The notes under the pieces were generated by a model that ran no database searches, was not told where the DNA came from, and saw nothing but the letters and a program-made list of their open reading frames with translations. A DNA stretch of 64,000 nucleotides from positions 1 through 64,000 of the forward strand of contig JADZCJ010000107.1 in assembly GCA_020851635.1 (NCBI GenBank), given 5' to 3'. Below, piece after piece: positions 51,676 through 53,172 of this stretch. The DNA comes from Anaerolineae bacterium. GTDB taxonomy: Bacteria > Chloroflexota > Anaerolineae > UBA4142 > SHND01. Both the position numbers and the translations under genes were made by a program. Each line of letters opens with the position of its first letter. Position 1 is the first letter of the stretch.

Positions 51676-52725
51676 TTACGCAATTTGAACGCCAAACCCC
51701 TCGACGACCTCGCCGACAATCCAATAATCAGTTTCTCGCGCCTTGAATTCGCGCGCCAGCGAATCCAGAATGCCCGACGGGACCGCCATGAGCAAGCCGC
51801 CGGATGTTTGCGGGTCAAAGACAACCGCCTCCCATTCGTCGCTCAAATTCTCTGGTAAGAACACCTTACCCTGCAAATAGTCACGATTTCGAGTCGTGCC
51901 GCCGGGAATACTGCCTTGTTTTGCAAGTTCAAGGGCACCATCCAAGAGGGGCAGCTGCTCAAAGCGGAATCGAAATTGGACTTGGGCTGCAAGAGCCATC
52001 TCGAAAGCATGTCCGGCGAGCGCAAAGCCGGTGATGTCGGTCATTGCCTTGATGCCCGCGGCGAGCGCCGCCCGAGAGGCATCACGATTCAGGGTCATCA
52101 TCCACTCGATGGCGTTGTTCAAGTCGTTTGTAGAAATGATGGCGCGTTTTCCTGCGGTCGTGAGGATACCCGTGCCAAGCGGTTTCGTCAATATTAAAAG
52201 GTCGCCGGGGTGCGCGCCACCTTTGGTCAGGATATGTTGCGGGTTTACGATTCCGGTGACGGCAACACCGTATTTTGGCTCCTGGTCGGTAATGGTATGT
52301 CCTCCGGCAATGACGCCGCCGCCCTCGCGCAGCTTGTCTGCGCCGCCGCGCATAATGTCGGACAATAATTCCAACGCCAAGTCTTCACGCCAGGCGGCAA
52401 TGTTTAGCCCAAAGATGACCTCTCCGCCCATCGCATAGACATCGCTCATCGCATTTGCCGCGGCGATCGCCCCAAAAGAATAGGCGTCATCCACGACCGG
52501 CGGAAAGAAATCCATGGTCTGAATGATGGCGCGCTCGTCGTCAATACGATACACTGCAGCATCATCGGGCGCGTCAAGACCCACAAGCAAATTCGGAAAA
52601 TCTGCCGCGTTAAACATGCCGGAGAGGGGACGCAAAACTTGCGTCAATTCGGCAGCGCCGAGTTTTGCCGCTCAACCCGCGCACGAGGCGTAATCGGTGA
52701 GGCGAATTTGTTTGGCTGTCGTCAT
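51676..52725 (-). CDS. selD: Selenide, water dikinase (SelD) with in-frame UGA selenocysteine codon
   Basis: 349 residues when the UGA at 52674-52672 (codon 18) is read through. From the ATG at 52725 the start reads RLTDYASCAG-U-AAKLGAAEL, which is the SelD active-site motif with the UGA exactly at the Cys/Sec position; a plain stop would remove 26 residues including this site. The rest matches SelD: DDAAVYRIDDERAIIQTMDF, DVYAMGGEV, VIAGGHTITDQEPKYG and a C-terminal FDPQTSGGLL. The enzyme makes selenophosphate from selenide and ATP. A hairpin at 52629-52645 lies at the right distance to act as a bacterial SECIS element. No clear Shine-Dalgarno sequence precedes the ATG. Confidence 0.95.
52629..52645 (-). 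promoter_or_regulatory. Candidate bacterial SECIS hairpin in selD
   Basis: On the minus strand GACGCAA-GTT-TTGCGTC forms a 7-bp perfect stem with a 3-nt loop whose first base is G. The loop begins 34 nt after the UGA at 52672, within the 16-37 nt range accepted for bacterial SECIS elements (Zhang and Gladyshev criteria as I know them). A nearer 5-bp stem CGGCA/TGCCG also exists. Confidence 0.7.
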
Positions 52726-52878: not shown

Positions 52879-52901
52879 TTTGAGCGTGACATGCGCTCAA
52901 A
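52879..52901 (-). repeat. Perfect 8-bp inverted repeat covering the stop of the 91-residue gene
   Basis: TTTGAGCG/CGCTCAAA with a 7-nt loop; the UGA stop at 52899-52897 is part of the 5' arm on the minus strand. No T-run follows, so it is not a typical terminator. Confidence 0.8.
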
Positions 52902-53172
52902 AATCGGTGATAGTTTCCGGCAGCCCCTCTTTGTTGCAAACATGCGCCGGTTGCACAAATTCTTCAAGGTGGACGCCGGTTTTGTCGGGAGAGGTCATCG
53001 CGGCTTCATCTGCAGAGGTCATGGGCGCGGCGATGACGAGCGCGGATGTTGGCTGTGTAAAACTGAGGGCATTCAGCCGCAAATTCTGCAAAATGTGCGA
53101 AAACGCAAACGCGGTTGTCATGAGCAAGAACGCCAGGACCAGGATGCCAACGCCGATGTAGAATTTTCTCAT
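52897..53172 (-). CDS. Small exported protein upstream of selD; UGA stop possibly read through
   Basis: 91 residues from an ATG with an excellent AAAGGAG ribosome-binding site. An N-terminal membrane or signal segment (FYIGVGILVLAFLLMTTAFA) is followed by about 65 polar residues with one Cys (AHVCNKEG). Family not recognised. The reading frame stays open for 57 further codons after the UGA, giving a Cys-containing extension (AHVTLKPIALTRF, then EPTCCNPEIQG, GSCAPNP and LDCAAQN) that runs in frame into selD. Whether the UGA is a true stop, a selenocysteine codon or a mutated Trp codon cannot be decided from sequence alone. Confidence 0.65.
   Translation of the reverse strand: MRKFYIGVGILVLAFLLMTTAFAFSHILQNLRLNALSFTQPTSALVIAAPMTSADEAAMTSPDKTGVHLEEFVQPAHVCNKEGLPETITDF

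Follow-up and report, generated by a model that had tools for sequence, protein, structure and literature searches.

The selD locus and its genome

The gene selD, for selenide water dikinase (selenophosphate synthetase), occupies 51676..52725 on the minus strand of the window, by which we mean the whole stretch of 64,000 nucleotides that was analysed. Its frame runs over 349 codons from an ATG at 52725 to a TAA at 51678–51676 and is interrupted by one TGA only, codon 18 (52674–52672), around which the peptide reads SCAG-U-AAKLG. An earlier note on this DNA had given the start, the position of the UGA, the flanking peptide and a read-through product of 349 residues, and re-reading of the frame returned each of these exactly. 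The first ATG, GTG or TTG past the UGA is a TTG at 52647, from which a mechanical ORF call yields 323 amino acids; it lies 26 codons below the ATG, and the correction of the gene start by 26 codons that the note had proposed is right relative to a call starting there.

The source genome (5.8 Mb, 144 contigs, completeness 97.7%) has as its closest named relatives metagenome-assembled genomes of Chloroflexota, Anaerolineae, Anaerolineales. A search of 99 genomes found selD orthologues of 72–77% identity in genomes of the same genus, and among named relatives the gene order selD-fabF-rnc is kept across genus and order, so the contig appears to be correctly binned. Upstream of selD lies a 91-aa ORF (52897–53172, minus strand) with an N-terminal hydrophobic stretch and no match in a Pfam search; it is found at 40–49% identity beside selD in three same-genus-like named loci.

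Identity of the product and position of the UGA codon

The read-through product scores 371.9 bits against the SelD equivalog model TIGR00476 (cut-off 125) and 333.7 bits against NF002098 (cut-off 299), and contains the N- and C-terminal AIRS domains (PF00586 and PF02769), both over their cut-offs. The closest solved structure by sequence is that of Escherichia coli SelD (3u0o, E 3e-69), which is homologous to the Chloroflexota protein across residues 5–329. In this alignment U18 falls on the catalytic Cys17 of E. coli SelD, and Lys21 (codon at 52663..52665, minus strand) falls on Lys20, which we take to have a catalytic role. The motif U/C-x-x-K is present in every SelD locus examined. The two proteins differ around this motif in that E. 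coli SelD has a second Cys two residues past the catalytic one (C-G-C-K) where the Chloroflexota protein has Ala (U-A-A-K), whereas the latter, like most of its class and unlike E. coli SelD, has a Cys three residues ahead of Sec (C-A-G-U). The placement of the UGA at the catalytic Cys/Sec position, as the note had argued, is thus supported by the E. coli alignment, by the TIGR00476 score and by conservation of the codon.

Conservation of the UGA codon

Orthologues of SelD were found in most of the 99 relatives searched, and nearly all full-length matches contain exactly one TGA. The catalytic codon is UGA in all 30 loci read in this search (the locus itself and 29 class relatives) and in 46 of 47 named loci, which come from Chloroflexota, Planctomycetota, Desulfobacterales, Clostridia, Acidobacteria and others; the remaining named locus (L088) has Cys. 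The named and unnamed sets overlap in part and comprise 65 distinct sequences in all, drawn with a Sec-type query that may favour Sec types, so that it is among the loci fetched that Sec-type SelD is the rule and not the exception. Three full-length matches do not have the UGA: one has an N at the codon (L119), one a run of N (L121), and the third (L120) is a NifS–SelD fusion with Cys. The Cys codon that the earlier note had proposed seeking in close relatives was seen in L088 and in this fusion, with TGA in 29 of 29 class relatives. The 17 codons ahead of the UGA encode the family N terminus (IRLTxYAxCAG). Because this N terminus precedes the UGA and the same codon recurs in all 29 class relatives, the TGA at codon 18 is, on comparison of sequences, neither chance nor a sequencing error.

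Two arrangements of selD elsewhere in the sample were recorded. L120 (genome G067, contig C515) joins a NifS-like cysteine desulfurase to a Cys-type SelD, and its genome encodes, apart from the fusion, a Sec-type SelD (L124); fusions of the NifS–SelD type have already been described (PMC4561486). At L125 (G020, C278) two adjacent selD copies, both with Sec-UGA and the second cut by the contig end, lie just downstream of an apparent cysteine desulfurase C terminus.

These comparisons bear on three other explanations of the codon. If the UGA were a real stop, selD would be a pseudogene, or would start at the TTG at 52647 and produce a SelD without its N-terminal loop, as the 323-aa ORF call would have it. 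The TTG is indeed available, but the N terminus ahead of the UGA is conserved across the class together with the UGA itself, and it is not credible that so many otherwise intact genes should have lost their catalytic residue, every time by TGA. We count this explanation as refuted by conservation; with the complete Sec machinery present in the genome (see below), it is very improbable. An error of sequencing or assembly, by which the TGA would stand for the TGC or TGT of a Cys-type SelD, is more improbable still and is refuted by the presence of TGA at this codon in 29 class relatives, each assembled separately, as well as in named genomes from several further phyla. We can give equally little credence to a UGA that is reassigned genome-wide, or read here as Trp or Gly instead of Sec. 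The genetic code here is without general TGA reassignment, since 16 of the window's 35 long frames terminate in TGA; the codon stands where SelD proteins have Cys or Sec, and the genome encodes SelA, SelB and tRNA-Sec, which for practical purposes refutes this explanation also.

Selenocysteine machinery in the genome

The earlier note had predicted that selA, selB and selC would lie outside the window, and all were found in the same genome, on contigs other than that of selD. There is one selA (593.9 bits, cut-off 267.9), one selB above the cut-off (348.7 bits, cut-off 242.25), the product of which contains SelB winged-helix domains, and one tRNA-Sec gene above the gathering score (69.5 bits against 47) with the anticodon UCA. 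The note had held that a genome lacking SelA, SelB and tRNA-Sec, or a Cys codon on resequencing, would speak against selenocysteine; the machinery is present, and the separately assembled relatives carry TGA. Taken with the conservation of the codon, selD at 51676..52725 is almost certainly an ordinary selenocysteine-containing SelD.

Candidate SECIS hairpins

Two hairpins follow the UGA on the minus strand. With the U of the UGA numbered 1, the proximal one (UCGGC-GCU-GCCGA, 52649..52661) occupies positions 14–26, and the distal one (GACGCAA-GUU-UUGCGUC, 52629..52645), which has 7 bp, occupies positions 30–46. The bacterial SECIS model specifies a loop of 3–9 nt with G in its first two positions, a stem of 4–16 bp, a spacing of 16–37 nt and a minimum free energy of -7.5 kcal/mol or lower (PMC13188914). 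The distal hairpin agrees with this model in its 7-bp stem, its GUU loop, the start of that loop 33 nt past the UGA and its energy, which at -7.5 kcal/mol just reaches the threshold. In the proximal hairpin the loop starts 15 nt past the UGA, just outside the range of 16–37 nt (PMC13188914).

Of all 5-bp hairpin registers scanned in 31 class sequences, those of the distal hairpin are the best paired. Its pairing was compared with two nulls in which the amino acids were kept and synonymous codons were either shuffled within each column or redrawn. Watson–Crick pairing over the seven pairs is 0.885 in the class, as against 0.815 ± 0.012 after column shuffling and 0.595 ± 0.028 after codon redraw (0 of 500 in each case), and in the remaining 33 sequences it is likewise higher than under either null (column shuffle, 0 of 500 as high; redraw, 2 of 500), all of these figures being uncorrected for relatedness. 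Compensatory changes are seen among sequences with at least five pairs, where pair 33–43 occurs as GC, CG, TA and AT and pair 36–40 as AT, GC and CG; this set was chosen by pairing and serves as illustration, not as a test. Taken whole, the 51-nt fold shows no significant excess of stability (z -1.38; matched by 24 of 200 shuffles), and an Rfam search gave no SECIS match at selD. From the pairing and its covariation, the hairpin at 52645–52629 is probably the SECIS of selD.

The role of the proximal hairpin is uncertain. It lies near the hairpin site of SelD genes that have no distal hairpin, and it could itself be the SECIS used by SelB, the distal one being a by-product of codon use, in which case Sec-containing SelD would still stand. 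In its favour, a hairpin lies at about the proximal place in SelD genes from other phyla, which often have none at the distal one, and the proximal hairpin is well paired in its own order (98% of cells, as against 71% after synonymous redraw). Many class members have lost this pairing, however, whereas the distal hairpin is kept and covaries; the apex of the distal one is seen again in an unrelated selenoprotein; and the proximal spacing falls outside the modelled range. We consider it unlikely that the proximal hairpin is the element used, and favour the distal one.

In several class SelD sequences the apex of the distal hairpin reads GCAGGUUCUGC. The SECIS of E. coli fdhF is likewise a small hairpin in which C-A-G is followed by G-U in the apical loop, as in the class SelD apex; its loop is nearer to the UGA than in the Chloroflexota selD, and its lower stem is different. 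The unrelated gene with a similar apex is a peroxiredoxin-like gene of the same genome (L114, described below), in which the hairpin UUGACGC-AGUU-GCGUCAA has its loop 25 nt past the UGA and is close to the selD hairpin GACGCAAGUUUUGCGUC. A loop AGUU on a GCGC-type stem is found in the 10 matches from relatives for which both motif and hairpin were read. An apex common to two unrelated genes would be expected if a single SelB recognised both, and it supports the distal hairpin independently. Tentatively, then, SelD of this class may rely on a distal SECIS, with an apex common to an unrelated selenoprotein, and not on the proximal hairpin of other phyla. If this is true, a distal SECIS with a common apex (GCGCA-AGUU/GGUU-GCGC type) would suggest a lineage-specific SelB recognition code, and the code would also constrain the encoded peptide (A-Q-V-L-R in SelD and A-Q-L-R in the peroxiredoxin-like protein).

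Other probable selenoproteins of the genome

The selenoproteome was sampled family by family in this nearly complete assembly. At least two further probable selenoproteins were found, both of the AhpC/TSA family with UGA at the expected redox Cys position, and the idea that SelD is the single selenoprotein was rejected on their account. One is a peroxiredoxin (L113; contig C22, about 75.8 kb) in which a UGA interrupts the frame at the place of the peroxidatic Cys (FTATU), the Sec aligning with the Cys of the FTGIC motif in the Mycobacterium tuberculosis peroxiredoxin 5c04 (Rv2238c/MT2298, AhpE); no SECIS hairpin was clearly found for it. The other, L114 (contig C2, about 71.2–71.7 kb), is a peroxiredoxin-like or SelL-related protein with the motif U-P-H-C, and its UGA is present in 12 of 12 matches in relatives. 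A TlpA-like AhpC/TSA match (L112; C140:217073, about 217.1 kb) was rejected as a selenoprotein and is probably a pseudogene, because a TGA takes the place of the Trp expected in the thioredoxin-like motif, and the frame is broken after it.

Among other families of this genome, four molybdopterin oxidoreductases have no in-frame TGA, and the most FdhA-like of them, compared by eye, has Cys at the position of Sec in FdhF; a family search found no Sec formate dehydrogenase. Family searches for YbbB, YqeB and SelW-like Rdx were negative, and no in-frame TGA was seen in the thioredoxin family. Since neither YbbB nor YqeB was found, selenophosphate in this genome appears, from the family-by-family search, to go solely into Sec, which is used in SelD and at least two redox proteins.

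Discussion

Our results suggest a mechanism in which SelB, carrying Sec-tRNA(Sec) with the anticodon UCA and bound to the hairpin at 52645–52629, would insert Sec at UGA18 in place of termination. In the protein so made, Sec18 and Lys21 would act in a flexible N-terminal loop to convert selenide and ATP to selenophosphate, which SelA would use to form Sec-tRNA(Sec). SelD would then need its own product in order to be made, because SelA draws on selenophosphate for Sec-tRNA(Sec). The same pathway would supply Sec for two or more peroxiredoxin-type proteins encoded in this genome.

Sec-containing SelD has long been known in bacteria, and SelD and FdhA are the most widespread bacterial selenoproteins (PMC1794560, PMC4561486). 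In a set of 223 genomes the Sec type made up about 19% of SelD genes, with Sec always at the catalytic position (PMC4561486). The protein described here belongs to the same family as these and, like them, has Sec at the same residue, selA, selB and selC in its genome, and a UGA followed by a hairpin. It differs in coming from an uncultured lineage, in the distance of about 33 nt between the UGA and the probable SECIS, and in a genome in which no Sec-FdhA and no ybbB were found. What is new is the distal SECIS and the common apex, both of which are covered by the existing bacterial SECIS model and may be mildly interesting to the specialist.

The selD finding leaves the known picture of selenium use unchanged. 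It corrects the annotation of a gene that automatic callers would truncate, and it adds a complete Sec-decoding gene set in an uncultured Chloroflexota lineage in which neither a Sec formate dehydrogenase nor ybbB was found. The resemblance between the apices of two unrelated genes offers a small, testable handle on recognition by SelB outside E. coli.
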